Positions 40,938 to 51,389 of a stretch of 64,000 bases of DNA are shown in pieces. Source of the stretch: Oscillospiraceae bacterium (lineage in GTDB: Bacteria > Bacillota > Clostridia > Oscillospirales > Ruminococcaceae); assembly GCA_031266415.1 (NCBI GenBank), contig JAISBB010000001.1, positions 62,001 through 126,000 of the forward strand, given 5' to 3'. Under the pieces are notes generated by a model that worked only from the letters and a program-made list of their open reading frames with translations, was not told the DNA's origin and searched no databases. The position numbers and the translations under genes were made by a program. Position 1 is the first letter of the stretch. Each line of letters opens with the position of its first letter.

Positions 40938-42041
40938 ATGAAATTTTCGTGTCTCGCAAATGACCTTGCAACAGCGCTGCAAAACACCGCAAGAGTTGTA
41001 GCAATTCGCTCAAGTTTATCTGCGGTTGGTGGCATTTTGCTGGAAACCACAGAAGATCATGTGTCACTTGTTGGTTATAACTTCGACATCGCAATAACCG
41101 CAAAAATCCCGGCAAAAATAGAAACCCCAGGCCGCATAGTCCTGGGAGCAAAATTACTCACAGACATAATGCGTCATATTCCAGAAGGTGTTGTTACCGC
41201 TGAAGTTAATGACTTGCACTTTAAAATCACAAACAATAATCTGAAGTTCGACATTATCGGAATTAATGCACAAGAGTACCCAGAATTACCAGATGTCGCC
41301 AGCCAAACGGAAGTAATTTTACCTGCAGAAAAATTCAAAGACTTGGTTAACAAAACTGTTTATGCAGCTTCAACAGATGAAACAAAATTAACCTATACAG
41401 GTGCCCTTTTAAAGATCGAAAAAGAACAAATGACAATAGTTGCTTTAGATGGATTTCGATTGGCAAAAAAAACAGAAATTGTGAATACAAAAGAAACCAT
41501 TAGTGTTATTTGCCCCAGTAGATCTTTGCAAGAAGTTGCGCGGTTAATTTCACACTCAAATCAAGAGGTGTTTATAAATATAGCAACAAACATCATCATG
41601 TTTCGCATAGGTGATTATAAAGTTATATCTAAATTATTAGAAGGAACATTTTTAGACTATGGGGCAACAATCCCTGAAGAATTTGGAACACATGTGGTTG
41701 CAAACACCGAAAACTTAATAAATTGTGTAGAACGAACATCTATTGTTGTGCAAGACAAATTAAAAGCCCCCATATTATTAAATGTAAGTACAGCAAGTAT
41801 ATGTTTAAATTGTGAAGGGCCAACAGGCTGCGCAAGCGACGAACTTCCCTGTAGCGTTCATGGTGCAGAACTGAAAATTGGGTTCAATAGCAGATTACTT
41901 TTAGATGCATTACGTGCCTGTGGAACAAATGAAGTTAGCCTTAAATTTTCTGGGAATCTTTCACCAGTTATTATTGAATCCGCAGATGAAAGCAATAATT
42001 TTTTATTTTTGGTGCTCCCCATTAGAACCGAAAGCGATTAA
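40938..42041 (+). CDS. dnaN: DNA polymerase III subunit beta (sliding clamp)
   Basis: MKFSCLANDLATALQNTARVVAIRSSLSAVGGILLETTEDHVSLVGYNFDIAI... Confidence 0.95.
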   Translation: MKFSCLANDLATALQNTARVVAIRSSLSAVGGILLETTEDHVSLVGYNFDIAITAKIPAKIETPGRIVLGAKLLTDIMRHIPEGVVTAEVNDLHFKITNNNLKFDIIGINAQEYPELPDVASQTEVILPAEKFKDLVNKTVYAASTDETKLTYTGALLKIEKEQMTIVALDGFRLAKKTEIVNTKETISVICPSRSLQEVARLISHSNQEVFINIATNIIMFRIGDYKVISKLLEGTFLDYGATIPEEFGTHVVANTENLINCVERTSIVVQDKLKAPILLNVSTASICLNCEGPTGCASDELPCSVHGAELKIGFNSRLLLDALRACGTNEVSLKFSGNLSPVIIESADESNNFLFLVLPIRTESD

Positions 42042-42069
42042 ACGCACAAACGAAAGGTCGAATGGATTT

Positions 42070-42633
42070 ATGGAACAAAAGCAAAACGACGCCACCGCAC
42101 CAATCCTTTCCGCTGCTTATTTCGTATCTCTTGCAGATTTTCGTGCCTATAATTTTACTCTCGCGGGACCAAAATTAAAAAAAACCAGGAACTCCGCAAT
42201 CAGAAGTTTTTTATTGCTATCTTCTGTGATGGCGGCTTACTTCTTTTTTGTTGTTTTAAAAAGCGAACCCAAAATGCCAAATAAACAAACCGTATTACTG
42301 CTTGCTCTGTGGATCCCAGTTTTTTTGAATTTTCTGTTTGGACTTTTTGGTTTAAAAAAATGGCTGAACTTTTCATCTAAGAAAGTTTATTCACACGACA
42401 ATTATTCACTTCATTGTGCTAAATTAGACCTTTTCAACGACCGGCTTGTTGAAACAACAAAAGAACCAATTACAATGTTACTAGAAGAAATCAACACAAT
42501 TTGGGAAAACGAAATAGCATATGTTGTTAGCAGTAAAAGTAACCAAGTGTTTATTGTTCACAAAACCACTAAAACAATTGCCATACTAGATCAATTACAA
42601 AGCATGCGAAAAAACAAAGGAAACAAAATATAA
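42070..42633 (+). CDS. YcxB-like two-TM membrane protein
   Basis: MEQKQNDATAPILSAAYFVSLADFRAYNFT...two TM helices...VYVV-type C-terminal domain; ORF-track start at 41905 overlaps dnaN so internal ATG preferred. Confidence 0.6.
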   Translation: MEQKQNDATAPILSAAYFVSLADFRAYNFTLAGPKLKKTRNSAIRSFLLLSSVMAAYFFFVVLKSEPKMPNKQTVLLLALWIPVFLNFLFGLFGLKKWLNFSSKKVYSHDNYSLHCAKLDLFNDRLVETTKEPITMLLEEINTIWENEIAYVVSSKSNQVFIVHKTTKTIAILDQLQSMRKNKGNKI

Positions 42634-42934: not shown

Positions 42935-44464
42935 ATGAAAGTCGCTATGAAAAAAAATATTAAAAAAATAGTAAATTTACTGTTTAGCCGCCTGTGTTTA
43001 GTTTTTTTGATGGTCAGCTTCCAAATAATTTTGGTGCTTGTTGCCGCTTTTCTGTTAGAAGAAAAGTTCCCTATCATAGTCACCGGGTTAAATGTTATTG
43101 CCGCCATTATGATTATTAACAGCAAAAGCACAGACGCACACAAACTTGCGTGGTTTGCGTGCGTTTTACTTTCACGCAAGTTTGGCAGTGTTTTATATCT
43201 TGTTGTGGGTTCACGAAACGCCCTTCAAAGCAAACACATTCAATCTAAAAAATTGCACAAACATGTATTGCAAAATGCAAAAACAGATGCATCATTAAGT
43301 TTAGATGCAAAGCAGCCTCGAATAATTCGTTACCTTAGTGGGAACTCATTCCCTGCATATAATCAAACAACAACAAAATATTTTCCAGAAGCAGACCTCG
43401 TGTTTAACGAAATGATGAAAAAACTTAGCGAGGCGCAATCATATATATTTATAGAGAGTTTTATTCTGGAAGAGGGCTATATGTGGGCAGAAATGCTAAA
43501 AGTGCTAGAAAAAAAAGCGGAATCTGGAGTAGAAGTCCGCATTCTTTATGACGATATTGGTTGTGTTAAACGGCTGCCGTTTAATTACCCAAAAAAGTTA
43601 AATAAGAAAGGGATTTTGTGCCGGAGTTTTAATCGGGTTCCATTAATCATAGACTCATCAATTTCCATTAGAGACCACAGAAAACTGGTTATAATTGATG
43701 GAATTACTGCGTTTATTAACAGCTTTAACATTTGCGACGAATATATTAACGTAAAATCATCAAACCTTGACCATTGGAAAGATAACTCAATAATGATCAC
43801 AGGGACCGCAGTAAAGAGTGTGGTTGTTATGTTTTTGCAAATGTGGAATTTAAGGAAAGCTTCGGACCACGATTTTAAAAAATACATAAAAACCGAAGTG
43901 AACAGCAATTCTGAATCTAGCGACCTTGTGCAACCATTTTGCTGTGAACCGTTTTCAACTACACGAATTTATGAAAATGTTTACTTGAATCTGTTAAATT
44001 CTGCAACCAAAGAAGTTTGCATTTTTACACCATATCTTGTCCCCAGTGCCGGCTTCCTTGCCGCGTGTCAAGATGCATCAAAAAGCGGAATTAATATTAA
44101 AATAGTGTACCCACAAAAAGCAGATCACTGGTACACAAACATTCTTTCCAAATCTTATTTCCCGCAATTGCTTAAGTCGGGGGTAAAAATATATAAATAT
44201 ATGTCAGGGTTTATTCATGCAAAATCTATGATTGTTGATGATGTTTGGGCTGTTGTTGGAACAGCAAACATTGACTACCGAAGTTTTTATTCACAATTTG
44301 AAATTGGTGTTGTTATGCATAAAACAGAAGCCGTTAAGCAATTTTCAAAAGATTGCAAAGAAACATTAAAACAGTGCAGCGAGCTCACTATGGAAAATTG
44401 TGTAAATGATCTTGGAATCAAGTTGGCAAATTTGTTTCTAAAGCCGTTTAAGCCTTTATTTTAG
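42935..44464 (+). CDS. cls: Cardiolipin synthase
   Basis: Two HKD motifs (DHRKLVIID, IHAKSMIVDD), N-terminal TM pair. Confidence 0.93.
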   Translation: MKVAMKKNIKKIVNLLFSRLCLVFLMVSFQIILVLVAAFLLEEKFPIIVTGLNVIAAIMIINSKSTDAHKLAWFACVLLSRKFGSVLYLVVGSRNALQSKHIQSKKLHKHVLQNAKTDASLSLDAKQPRIIRYLSGNSFPAYNQTTTKYFPEADLVFNEMMKKLSEAQSYIFIESFILEEGYMWAEMLKVLEKKAESGVEVRILYDDIGCVKRLPFNYPKKLNKKGILCRSFNRVPLIIDSSISIRDHRKLVIIDGITAFINSFNICDEYINVKSSNLDHWKDNSIMITGTAVKSVVVMFLQMWNLRKASDHDFKKYIKTEVNSNSESSDLVQPFCCEPFSTTRIYENVYLNLLNSATKEVCIFTPYLVPSAGFLAACQDASKSGINIKIVYPQKADHWYTNILSKSYFPQLLKSGVKIYKYMSGFIHAKSMIVDDVWAVVGTANIDYRSFYSQFEIGVVMHKTEAVKQFSKDCKETLKQCSELTMENCVNDLGIKLANLFLKPFKPLF

Positions 44465-44477
44465 GAGATGATTCTGT

Positions 44478-46625
44478 TTGCTTGTAGCGGAAGTAGCTGT
44501 GGAAAACACCGCCTATTCATACGACAAATTGTTCATCTATAAAATTCCCAAAAACCTAGAAAAGAAAATTAAAATTGGGCAACAAGTTTTAGTCCCATTT
44601 GGCAACAAAAACGAACAAAGAAAGGGACTTGTTTTTAAACTAATTGCCGATTTTTCGCCCAGCAAACCGCTAAATCTTAAAAACATCTGCGAAATTAACA
44701 ACGAGCAGCCAATTTTAACCACAGAACTTATTAGACTAGCCACCTGGCTCTCTAAAACGGTCTTTTGCACTTACTTTGAAGCTGTTGGTACAATATTCCC
44801 GAGTTGTTTGTGGAAAAGTAAAAAACAAATCACTGTTCGGCTTAACCCTACACAAACCATCTCGCATTTTAAGCTCACAAGCAAACAGCTAGCCATAATA
44901 AAACAGCTATCTAACGGGCAAACGCAACCATTATCAAAACTTATAAAAACATGCACCACAAGATCGGTGATAAATACTTTAGAAAAAAAAGGCGTTATTA
45001 TTTCTGAACTTTACACCTCGCAAAATGTGCAACCACTTGCACTTTCACCCATGCTAGCAACCGAAATTTCATTAGGACCAACAGATAAAAAAATCTATGA
45101 GCAACTCATATCAGAATTTAAAAAGCAAAAACTCGCAGCTGCATTGCTGTTTGGACCAAGTTTTTGTGACACTTTATTGTTCTTTAAGTTGGCAAAAAAA
45201 GTATTAAGCTCTGGAAAATCAACGTTACTTTTAGTTCCAGAAATAGAAATAATCGAGCAACTACATCCACTGTTAATCAAGTATTTTGGCAATAATTTCA
45301 TCGTTATTCACCGCAACCTTACAAACAAAGAACGTGTAATCAGGTGGCAACAAATAAAAAGCAGCAGCACAATTTTAGTTGTTGGTACCCGTTTAGCCGT
45401 TTTTACACCAATAAACAACCTTGGCGCAATTATCGTCACAGAAGAATCAGGAACGTCATATATATCTGAACATAATCCCTTTTACAATGCATTAGAAGTG
45501 GCCAAGTTCCGTGCAAAATTTAATAATTGCTTACTTGTTTTTGCATCCCCAACCCCTTCTGTCATAAATTTATATAAGGCGAAGCAAGGGCGCTTTAAAC
45601 TACTGCAGTTACCACAAGAAACAACAGCAAAAATTACATTGGTAGGAAAAGAAAACAATGCAACAATATTTGCCCCTGAATTAATTAACACATTATCTGC
45701 TAACATGAAAAATAACAAACAAAGTATTATCGTACTAAACCAAAAGGGATACAGTACCATTATAAGATGTTCAAATTGCAAAAATGTTCTTTGTTGCCCG
45801 CACTGTAGTTCTAACCTAGTTTACCACAATCGCACAGGCTTCCTGCACTGCCACCGCTGTAACTATAAAACAGAAAGTAAATCGATTTGTGATGCATGCG
45901 GCAGCGAATTTATTGAATATCTGGGCTTTGGCATTGAAAAGGTAACAGCGCAACTCTCTAAATTTTTTAACGCCAGGATATTAAAATTAGATGCCGAAAA
46001 TAACACCCAAGATTTAGAAATGGGGCTCCAGCATTTTTTTGAGCACCAATATGATATTTTAGTGGGAACTCAAGCTGTTTTAAAATGCATTTCAGCACCA
46101 AATGTAATGCTAGTTTACGTTTTGGGACTAGACCAAAACCTTTTAAGCAATGATTATAGAGGAACCGAACAAACGTTTTCTTTAATTATGCAAATTGCTA
46201 AACAAATGCAAACAAAAGATAGCCAAATAATTTTACAAACCAGCCTTCCAACTGATAAATTTTGGAAATTCATACAACAAAAAGATTACCTTGCCTTTTT
46301 TGAACATGAACTCATCTTAAGAAAAACGTTAAATTTACCACCATTTTGCGATCTCATTGTTATTGGGTTTGTAAGCAAAAATCAAAACTTGGCTTATAAC
46401 GCAGCTTGTTTTTTTCACAAAATGATAATAGAGAAAATAAATGTAACTCCACCAATCCCAGCAAACACATTTCAACTAAACTCAAATTTCAGGTACAAAA
46501 TAGTCATTAAACATAAAAACGATTCCGCGTTTAGGTCTTTCCTGCGGAATCTTTTATATGACTTTTTTAACTGCCACAACCACAAAAACACACATGTCTT
46601 TGTGGATTCATCACTAACACTTTAA
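44478..46625 (+). CDS. priA: Primosomal protein N' (PriA) with eroded helicase motifs
   Basis: 3'BD domain VAEVAVENTAYSYDKLFIYKIP, zinc-binding CSNCKNVLCCPHCSSNLVYH...CHRC...CDACGS, PriA-like overall colinearity. Confidence 0.88.
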   Translation: MLVAEVAVENTAYSYDKLFIYKIPKNLEKKIKIGQQVLVPFGNKNEQRKGLVFKLIADFSPSKPLNLKNICEINNEQPILTTELIRLATWLSKTVFCTYFEAVGTIFPSCLWKSKKQITVRLNPTQTISHFKLTSKQLAIIKQLSNGQTQPLSKLIKTCTTRSVINTLEKKGVIISELYTSQNVQPLALSPMLATEISLGPTDKKIYEQLISEFKKQKLAAALLFGPSFCDTLLFFKLAKKVLSSGKSTLLLVPEIEIIEQLHPLLIKYFGNNFIVIHRNLTNKERVIRWQQIKSSSTILVVGTRLAVFTPINNLGAIIVTEESGTSYISEHNPFYNALEVAKFRAKFNNCLLVFASPTPSVINLYKAKQGRFKLLQLPQETTAKITLVGKENNATIFAPELINTLSANMKNNKQSIIVLNQKGYSTIIRCSNCKNVLCCPHCSSNLVYHNRTGFLHCHRCNYKTESKSICDACGSEFIEYLGFGIEKVTAQLSKFFNARILKLDAENNTQDLEMGLQHFFEHQYDILVGTQAVLKCISAPNVMLVYVLGLDQNLLSNDYRGTEQTFSLIMQIAKQMQTKDSQIILQTSLPTDKFWKFIQQKDYLAFFEHELILRKTLNLPPFCDLIVIGFVSKNQNLAYNAACFFHKMIIEKINVTPPIPANTFQLNSNFRYKIVIKHKNDSAFRSFLRNLLYDFFNCHNHKNTHVFVDSSLTL

Positions 46626-48544: not shown

Positions 48545-50608
48545 TTAAATACTTCGAAATAATACAATCACAAAACACAGCAACAGCCACAACATGTGGT
48601 ACCCCAATACATTTGTAGCAGAAATCATACTAAGGTTTCCACACAACACAAAATAATTCACCAATCCTAAACCAATCACCGCACCCAACATTTGCACGAA
48701 AACTGTAACCTTAGCAGTATTTTGCGCCCGTTTTGCTTCTGTTAAAATTAAGTTCAAACCAAATAGTTTTTCTTTAACAAAAACTTGCGATTCTTCACTT
48801 ATTTCCAAATTCTTTGATAAAGCTAACGGAACAACCGCCATTGAGTTTTTTTCAAGTCCGTAAAGCGTAGAAAAAAACTCGTGTGAAAAAGTAACATCTT
48901 TTACGTTAACAAAAATCCCAACCTTATTTTTTTGCAAATGTGCAAGCATTCTTCTGACCTTTACAAGAGGCTTATACCCAACAATAAACATTGCAAGCAA
49001 AACGCCATCCACAGCAACATATTGTGCTCTTGAAATAATTTCTCCAGGCTTTGCGATGAGGCGTATTTTTTCGAATTCTCTGGAAGGTGTTCGCACTCCG
49101 TGGTTTATCATAAGCTCACGTGACCCAAACAAAATCCGCTTCCCATCTATCCAACCAGAAAACCCCATATCTCCCTCAAAATTTAAACCTTCTACTGGCT
49201 TCAGCATATCTTTGCTGGCAAGCATACAAGTAAAAACATCAACCGCTTCCACAAGTGCCGCACTCAAGATACTGGCTGCACTCAAAATTGCAAAATCCAC
49301 CAATTTTTTTTCGAAAAGTTCCATTTTCAGAAGCTTCGTATGTGTGTTGGAAATCAAATCGCAACCGTCTACAATTGCCGCATCTACAGAAGTTGCAAGA
49401 TTTAATGCTGAAAGAGAGCTTATTCCTCCTCCTCCACGACACAACTGCTTTGCAAAATTCAAAAAAACCAGTCCACAACAAAAAGAACCGGCAAATGGAG
49501 CCCCCATTGTTAAAAGTCCACTGAAAATTGTTATTCCAAGCTGATAATCTTCCTTAAAAGCAAAAAAAACTGCACTCACTCCAGCAATAAGAAATAGAAT
49601 TGGAGTGAAAATTCGACACACGTTATCAAAATAATCCGGCAGCTTTTCTGATGCGGACTCCCATCCATTCCCTTCTTCTAAAATACTAACATTCCCATCA
49701 TCGTTCCCCACAAGATAGCGCAATTGCTCTGCCGATTCAATTTTAAGTTTCTTAAACATATATACATTGCCTTTGGCCAGCAACTGCTGATTTCGCTCCT
49801 CAACGCACCCAAGCATATATCTACTAAGTGAATAAAAAAACCACGCGCCAATTGCCACAACACTATAAATATTCGCGAAATTATGTACAGTAACATATGA
49901 ATTTAGAAGTCCAACAATATTCTGCCCAAGTGCACCTAAAACCGAAATGCAAACTAAACTACTGGCATCCGCTTTGAATTTCACAAAACATTTTAATCCA
50001 AAAAGCATCAACTCAATATTTGTGGCAATAGGAATAATTAAAAACAAAAGATTAATTAAAACTGATACAGGCTGGTCTAAAACAACTTTTAAAAACGAAG
50101 GTAAAAAGGTTGGCTTGACATTCAGCAAAAATAACCACATTAAAACCAAAAACGAACTCGCACTAACAATTAATTGTGCACCCCAAAAATCTTTTTCTTT
50201 AGTTGAACGATCAACTTCAATACTCGTTTTCAATTTAGTTGTTTTTTCAACAATTTCAGAATCTGGTTCTGGCGAAAGTGGCAAAAAATTATCATCTTCA
50301 AGTAGTTTCTCTAAATCAGGCTCTTCGACTTCTGCCTCTTCAAAACCATCAATTTGGATATCGTTATTTTCAATAAATTCATTTGTTAAAGTTTCTCTTT
50401 TAAAACGCAACTCACATCTAGATGTTGCTTTAAAATCCATGATTTCTTCATTTTTGTCAACCGCACTAAATTCTGTGGCTGTGTTACTGCAAATCTCTGG
50501 AGTGACATCATTCGGATTTTCATCCACAACCTGCGACTCAGAGACTGCATTTCTTTTTGCCCTTATCTCTTGCAATATATCGTCTACACTGAAATTATTT
50601 CTCGGCAT
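48545..50608 (-). CDS. P-type-ATPase-like membrane protein lacking DKTGT (predicted pseudoenzyme)
   Basis: MPRNNFSVDDILQEIRAKR acidic N-terminus; multiple TM helices; GFSGWIDGKRILFGSRELMINHGV N-domain-like; SVDAAIVDGCDLISN at the phosphorylation-site position. Start chosen at ATG 50608 with SD GGAGAGAG rather than 50662. Confidence 0.7.
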   Translation of the reverse strand: MPRNNFSVDDILQEIRAKRNAVSESQVVDENPNDVTPEICSNTATEFSAVDKNEEIMDFKATSRCELRFKRETLTNEFIENNDIQIDGFEEAEVEEPDLEKLLEDDNFLPLSPEPDSEIVEKTTKLKTSIEVDRSTKEKDFWGAQLIVSASSFLVLMWLFLLNVKPTFLPSFLKVVLDQPVSVLINLLFLIIPIATNIELMLFGLKCFVKFKADASSLVCISVLGALGQNIVGLLNSYVTVHNFANIYSVVAIGAWFFYSLSRYMLGCVEERNQQLLAKGNVYMFKKLKIESAEQLRYLVGNDDGNVSILEEGNGWESASEKLPDYFDNVCRIFTPILFLIAGVSAVFFAFKEDYQLGITIFSGLLTMGAPFAGSFCCGLVFLNFAKQLCRGGGGISSLSALNLATSVDAAIVDGCDLISNTHTKLLKMELFEKKLVDFAILSAASILSAALVEAVDVFTCMLASKDMLKPVEGLNFEGDMGFSGWIDGKRILFGSRELMINHGVRTPSREFEKIRLIAKPGEIISRAQYVAVDGVLLAMFIVGYKPLVKVRRMLAHLQKNKVGIFVNVKDVTFSHEFFSTLYGLEKNSMAVVPLALSKNLEISEESQVFVKEKLFGLNLILTEAKRAQNTAKVTVFVQMLGAVIGLGLVNYFVLCGNLSMISATNVLGYHMLWLLLCFVIVLFRSI

Positions 50609-50630
50609 ATTTAATCTCTCTCCATCCACA

Positions 50631-51389
50631 TCAACAAGAACTTCGTTGTTTTTGTTTCGCAATTTCTGCGATTATTATTCCCGCAGCAACAGAAACATTA
50701 AGTGAAAGTGATTCCCCAAACATGGGAATGGTTAGAAGGGCATTACTTCGTTCCTTTGCCAACCGGCTAACACCTTTCCCTTCTGCTCCAAAAACAATTG
50801 CTAAATCTCCTGAAAATTTAAATTCAAAAAGACTCTCTCCTTGCAAGTCAGCAGCATAAACCACAACTCCTTCCCGCTTTAACTTATCTATTGTTTCAGC
50901 AATATTACGTACCATAATAATCGGAACATATTCACAGCCCCCAGAAGCAACCTTCAAAACAGTTGAGGTTATTTGCACACTTCTATCTCTAGGAATAATT
51001 ATTCCATCCACACCAAAAACAGCTGCCGTTCTTATTATAGCACCAAAATTATGTGGATCGGTTAAATGGTCTAAAACTACAAAAAAAGCCCCACGACCGA
51101 GGACTTCACTCACAACATCATCTAATAATGCATATTTAAATTTGCTTAACTTTGCCACAACCCCTTGATGAACTCCAACGTAAAGCAAATCTAGTTCCTT
51201 TGTCCCAACTTCACGAATCTTTATGCCTTTTTGTTCAGCTAAATTCAAAAGAACTCCTAAATTTTTTCTGGTTCCACGAAGAAACTGAATTTCAACAATT
51301 TCACGGCCTGCACTTAAAGCTTCTAAAACTGCGTGTTTGCCGGCTAACATTAAGCAATTCATTTCTTCACAGAACCAACCCACTGCCAC
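50631..51389 (-). CDS. rlmB: 23S rRNA 2'-O-ribose methyltransferase, SpoU/TrmH family
   Basis: LDHLTDPHNFGAIIRTAAVFGVDGIIIP, VFGAEGKGVSRLAKE, IPMFGESLSLNVSVAAGI. Confidence 0.93.
   Translation of the reverse strand: MAVGWFCEEMNCLMLAGKHAVLEALSAGREIVEIQFLRGTRKNLGVLLNLAEQKGIKIREVGTKELDLLYVGVHQGVVAKLSKFKYALLDDVVSEVLGRGAFFVVLDHLTDPHNFGAIIRTAAVFGVDGIIIPRDRSVQITSTVLKVASGGCEYVPIIMVRNIAETIDKLKREGVVVYAADLQGESLFEFKFSGDLAIVFGAEGKGVSRLAKERSNALLTIPMFGESLSLNVSVAAGIIIAEIAKQKQRSSC

Follow-up and report, generated by a model that had tools for sequence, protein, structure and literature searches.

The window analysed here is a stretch of 64,000 nucleotides from an Oscillospiraceae bacterium (assembly GCA_031266415.1, contig JAISBB010000001.1, positions 62,001 to 126,000 of the forward strand). 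It carries a priA gene whose reading frame is uninterrupted from its start codon to its stop, and which lies in a dnaN-x-cls-priA cluster (Table 1). This gene order was common to the genome of the window (G000), to 2 further genomes of its genus (G001 and G003) and to the sister genus g228, which is represented by G376/G457. The open reading frame that follows dnaN (41905-42633, + strand) had no Pfam match, and its listed start overlaps the 3' end of dnaN; it keeps its place after dnaN in G001, G003 and g228. The genus of the window, g1, is represented by G000 through G003. G000 measures 736 kb in 7 contigs and is 97.8% complete; the other 3 genomes of g1 (94%, 89% and 68% complete for G001, G002 and G003, respectively) are of 0.8-0.9 Mb, as are those of g228. 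Full-length PriA copies were available from G000, G001 and G002, and the G003 copy stops at about residue 466, where its contig ends, before it reaches motifs V and VI.

Table 1. Features of the priA locus in the window (positions are those of the window; residues are those of the priA product)
Feature	Position	Strand	Remarks
dnaN (sliding clamp)	40938..42041	+	in dnaN-x-cls-priA cluster
Cardiolipin synthase-like gene (cls)	42935..44464	+	directly upstream of priA, 13-nt gap
Likely ribosome-binding site of priA, AGGAGA	44463..44468	+	9 nt upstream; overlaps cls stop
priA	44478..46625	+	full-length PriA, 715 aa; TTG start; eroded ATPase/helicase motifs
3'BD (fork 3'-end binding domain), residues 6-108	44493..44801	+	kept; Pfam PF17764, 1e-18
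Former Walker A, residues 226-233, GPSFC-DTL	45153..45176	+	lysine and one residue lost; canonical GVTGSGKT
Former motif II/Walker B, residues 321-324, TEES	45438..45449	+	canonical DEEH/DEEQ
Motif III, residues 357-360, SPTP	45546..45557	+	canonical SATP
Zinc-binding Cys-rich region, residues 431-474	45768..45899	+	eight Cys, all kept; PF18319
Motif V, residues 530-537, GTQAVLKC	46065..46088	+	GTQ kept; MVAKG replaced by AVLKC
Former motif VI, residues 572-577, QIAKQM	46191..46208	+	deletion; canonical QVVGRAGR; arginine finger lost
PriA C-terminal domain, residues 622-710	46341..46607	+	kept; PF18074, 1e-10

The product of this gene is by architecture a PriA protein, in that the 3'BD, the zinc-binding Cys-rich region and the C-terminal domain occur in one chain. 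Pfam matches over the cut-off were obtained for PriA_3primeBD, PriA_C, Zn_ribbon_PriA and Helicase_C, and the TIGR00595 score of 378 bits was above the cut-off for that model (230); the DEAD domain, which bears Walker A and Walker B, fell below its Pfam cut-off (18 vs 26 bits). A phylogenetic tree placed the protein among the PriA proteins of its own family, as an orthologue. In the 3'BD, 11 of the 12 conserved columns are unchanged in each of the three full-length g1 copies, and most of the conserved columns of the C-terminal domain remain as well. The window copy also keeps the GTR/ARL region, VPEI, the LPPFC stretch and, in the aromatic-rich loop region, S-x3-P. A segment of about 80 residues between the 3'BD and the winged helix, present in g228 and in many PriA proteins of the family, is missing in g1. 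The site of this absence corresponds to window positions 44810-44830, and the segment is missing separately in a G034-type clade.

The ATPase and helicase motifs, in contrast to those of g228 and the other canonical relatives, are eroded throughout. The original prediction, made from the window alone, had described an intact 715-residue PriA with its 3'BD and zinc-binding Cys clusters and had read the altered motifs as GPSFCDTLLF, TEES, SPT and QIAKQMQT; alignment with relatives and the profile matches bore out each of these readings, and showed in addition that Walker A is one residue short and that motif VI is shorter by 2-4 residues in G000, G001 and G002, with its canonical form gone. The prediction was right that all core motifs are eroded, and went too far in holding that every nucleotide-binding or hydrolysis residue is lost, for E322/E323, S357/T359/P360, G530-T531-Q532 and Q572 remain. 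Of the features of an active SF2 PriA helicase, the protein lacks Walker A, the Walker B aspartate, AKG in motif V and the motif VI arginines. Judged from these residues, normal ATP binding and hydrolysis would be absent from the protein; weak nucleotide binding through the remaining E323, SxTP and GTQ is possible.

We then compared these losses with losses elsewhere in the protein, using 144 alignment columns in which canonical relatives show 90% conservation or more, 23 of them in the ATP motifs and 121 elsewhere. All three full-length g1 copies kept 4 of the 23 ATP-motif columns as against 78 of the 121 others (Fisher p = 4e-5), so that loss in g1 is concentrated at the ATP motifs far beyond chance. 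The PriA of g228 kept 20 of the 23 and 100 of the 121, with no bias of this kind. Eighteen of the 121 columns outside the ATP motifs were lost in all three full copies, among them Q203, the R at 423 and the TQ at 486-487. Possibly, these losses followed from loss of the helicase cycle, although general drift would suit them equally well.

The PriA proteins of G001, G002 and G003 (two full length, one cut by a contig end) are 45-49% identical to the window copy, and they have lost the same motifs, which excludes sequencing error as the source. Walker A is lost in all four species (GPSFC-DT, SLSAK-DP, GGRLE-DS and GLGAK-KP), as is the Walker B aspartate (TEES, TDEQ, INEH and ADEH); a deletion in motif I is fixed in all four copies, and deletions in motif VI are found in all three full copies. 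The residues substituted into the ATP motifs differ among the g1 species, as is expected for sites that are no longer used. In contrast, g228, the nearest other genus in our sample, has canonical motifs (GITGSGKS, DEEQ, SATPS, GTQIVAKG and QVIGRAGR), as do the aligned relatives from the family and the order. Since g228 is the sister of the g1 clade in the PriA tree (support 100/100), these observations place loss of the motor on the stem of genus g1.

From a survey of 295 genomes of the order with TIGR00595, we checked 12 of the low-scoring genomes for further PriA proteins without a motor, and none was found among these 12, a result that does not imply that g1 is unique in the order. In 8 of the 12, the PriA pieces lay at contig edges or were split, with motifs intact wherever present, and the other 4 were without any PriA. 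The genomes G165, G265, G075 and G176, which are 90-99% complete, had no PriA above matches of the level given by RecG and Mfd, through either real loss or gaps in assembly.

The priA gene is under purifying selection. For the G001-G003 comparison, we obtained a dN of 0.151 and a dS of 1.01 over 466 codons, which is a dN/dS of 0.149; the corresponding value was 0.06 in the zinc region and 0.23-0.51 in the former ATP motifs, where it is based on few codons. The g228 pair gave a dN/dS of 0.113. Between G000 and the other g1 species synonymous sites are saturated, and dN/dS serves there as a rough check only. Distances from the g1/g228 node to the tips of the PriA tree were 1.02, 0.86 and 1.00 in g1 vs 0.65 in g228 (a ratio of ~1.5), and those for RecG were 0.70, 0.63 and 0.66 vs 0.46 (~1.45). 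The acceleration of PriA is thus about that of RecG, an intact helicase of these genomes, and PriA shows no release from constraint beyond the general rate of the lineage. The original prediction had named a dN/dS near 1 and a second, canonical PriA in the same genome as evidence against it; neither was observed. Searches of the 97.8% complete G000 assembly found no second PriA, and we have rejected that possibility, together with that of a plain pseudogene, given the intact frames and the dN/dS of 0.15.

The partners with which a PriA of this type would work are also encoded in G000. Genes for a DnaD-like protein and for DnaI, the latter with its P-loop kept, adjoin on contig C5, and the SSB tail is retained (the protein ends in EDEDLPF). 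The remainder of the Firmicute-type helicase-loading chain is thus present. DnaD was not found in G002 or in G003, at the completeness given above for these assemblies. The Walker A motifs of RecA, RecG, Mfd, UvrB, PcrA and AddA are intact in G000, and since recombinational repair genes are kept, a need for restart is present in this organism. In the window, a 705-aa predicted membrane protein adjoins rlmB (48545-50662, - strand); it had no Pfam or NCBIfam match, and phmmer matched it to the copper P1B-ATPase CopA (3rfu, 2e-5). With DKTGT changed to DGCDL and TGD to VKD, it has the appearance of another ATPase whose catalytic motifs have eroded.

G000 also encodes an ATP/ADP translocase (TLC; G000:C4:209817-211292, E 8e-157), which is present in G002, G003 and g228 as well and had no match in the 94% complete G001, either through secondary loss or through a gap. 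The organism is a gut bacterium that probably takes ATP from its host. The small genome and the strong TLC match, taken together, fit the Acutalibacteraceae small genome clade of energy parasites (Ca. Improbicoccus and others), whose genomes are of 0.86-1.4 Mb and carry an ATP/ADP translocase (PMC10579323), and we infer membership in that clade. PriA is not mentioned in the main text of that report.

The AlphaFold2 modelling suggested in the original prediction, run with a 38-row alignment, gave a PriA fold for the window protein with a pLDDT of 87.5 and a pTM of 0.84. The nine best PDB matches of the model were all PriA structures, the first being fork-bound E. coli PriA (8fak_H, TM 0.79), which was also the best match for a model of the canonical g228 protein. 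The model thus predicts an intact shell devoid of the catalytic residues, although the alignment contains canonical PriA proteins and the model leans on them.

What we observe in the window, then, is a PriA orthologue that lacks the catalytic motif residues and is maintained by selection, that is, a PriA pseudohelicase as defined from sequence. We consider it highly probable that this protein, the only PriA of G000, is an ATP-independent pseudohelicase that is still selected as a platform for fork recognition and primosome assembly. Since the motor is lost and the gene remains under selection, a passive loading platform is the most likely role, and by analogy with other PriA proteins that role would lie in replication restart. 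The scaffold reading of the original prediction is supported in this respect by the single PriA, the dN/dS of 0.15 and the retention of DnaD, DnaI and the SSB tail, with the function itself inferred.

Other explanations were weighed against this one. A gene on its way to being lost, decaying under relaxed selection with a frame that is open only through recency, might be suspected in a highly reduced genome of 736 kb, particularly as PriA evolves faster in g1 than in g228. However, intact RecG shows an equal acceleration, all of the zinc-binding cysteines are kept and dN/dS is 0.15, and at 45-49% identity a neutral gene would have been broken in the three other species, in which the frames are open; we regard decay as very unlikely. 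Continued ATPase activity through altered residues (E323, K536 and Q572), or a nucleotide that acts as a regulatory ligand without hydrolysis, could be proposed from what is left of motifs II, III and V, but seems extremely unlikely to us. The P-loop has lost its lysine, its glycine and one further residue, the Mg-binding aspartate and the arginines of motif VI are missing, the substituting residues are unconserved among the four species, and the K230R change alone abolishes the ATPase of E. coli PriA (PMC4504706).

A selected protein may also have a job other than recombination-dependent restart, for example in helicase loading at oriC or as a structural component of forks or of the SSB interactome. 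The conservation of the dnaN-x-cls-priA cluster in G000, G001, G003 and g228 would agree with such a job, as would the loss of the otherwise conserved Q203, R423 and T486-Q487 outside the ATP motifs. Yet the same cluster exists in the sister genus, where PriA is of the active type, and the recombination and restart partners are retained, so that we hold this explanation to be improbable.

For the platform reading, a pathway can be outlined from the parts that remain. The 3'BD and the helicase-lobe shell would bind an abandoned or repaired fork, with docking on the SSB tail as an aid. The DnaD-like protein would then take over from the zinc-ribbon and C-terminal surfaces and bring DnaI and the replicative helicase. 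PriA itself would not use ATP to unwind the nascent lagging strand; opening of the fork would be left to RecG, PcrA or other intact helicases, or only gapped forks would be restarted. Without lagging-strand unwinding, restart would be limited to forks that expose ssDNA or that other helicases have opened. A more elaborate version, in which an ATP-parasitic lineage rebuilt restart as ATP-independent loading, with DnaD/DnaI and RecG/PcrA taking over fork opening through compensating changes, strikes us as rather unlikely, if conceivable.

PriA proteins of comparable condition have been described. Experiments on the D. radiodurans PriA, which has poor motifs I and II, showed no ATPase or helicase activity, yet its binding to forks is similar to that of other PriA proteins and it contacts DnaB (PMC4504706); this precedent is absent from the original prediction. 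In E. coli, a PriA devoid of ATPase activity still builds primosomes and keeps the cells viable (PMC4504706), which confirms the statement in the original prediction that Walker A mutants of E. coli PriA retain primosome assembly. The window PriA resembles the Deinococcus protein in its degenerate motifs I and II. In D. radiodurans, however, the Walker A lysine is replaced by arginine, whereas the window PriA has a shortened and scrambled P-loop and a deletion in motif VI; and the Deinococcus state spans a whole phylum (PMC4504706), whereas the loss in g1, which lies in a separate phylum and in a reduced genome with a DnaD/DnaI loader, is independent and much younger. Canonical PriA, as in E. 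coli and K. pneumoniae (4nl4/8fak) and in g228 (G376/G457), has its fold, 3'BD, zinc region and order of domains in common with the window protein, which departs from it at each of the motifs retained by g228 and by other relatives (GVTGSGKT/S, DEEQ, SATPS, GTQ..AKG and GRAGR).

Actinobacterial PriA (NCBIfam PRK14873 / NF011451-NF011455; M. tuberculosis Rv1402) is a further case, which we take to be an annotated PriA without recognisable helicase motifs. Rv1402 is listed as essential, and PriA is there termed a helicase loader (PMC5694481). Canonical PriA models matched the window protein with 480 bits, vs at most 145 bits for the actinobacterial models; these scores, together with its clustering with the PriA of its own family, indicate a separate loss, and transfer from Actinobacteria was rejected. 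A limited literature search found no report of this loss of the PriA motor in Firmicutes. The window PriA appears, from its sequence, to be another and independent origin of the known PriA pseudohelicase type, now in Firmicutes, with a loss that looks more complete at the motif level than in the earlier cases, far younger, and accompanied by a sister of the active type.

On the practical side, the automatic label 'replication restart helicase PriA' can mislead about activity. Nearly all PriA proteins have kept the motor, even though E. coli lives in the laboratory with a PriA that is ATPase-dead, and a recent loss at the level of a genus, beside an intact sister genus, is a natural experiment on the purpose of the motor and on the partners that compensate for it. 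The pseudohelicase state of PriA has arisen more than once, and its repeated origin supports the view that the scaffold function is the indispensable part of PriA.
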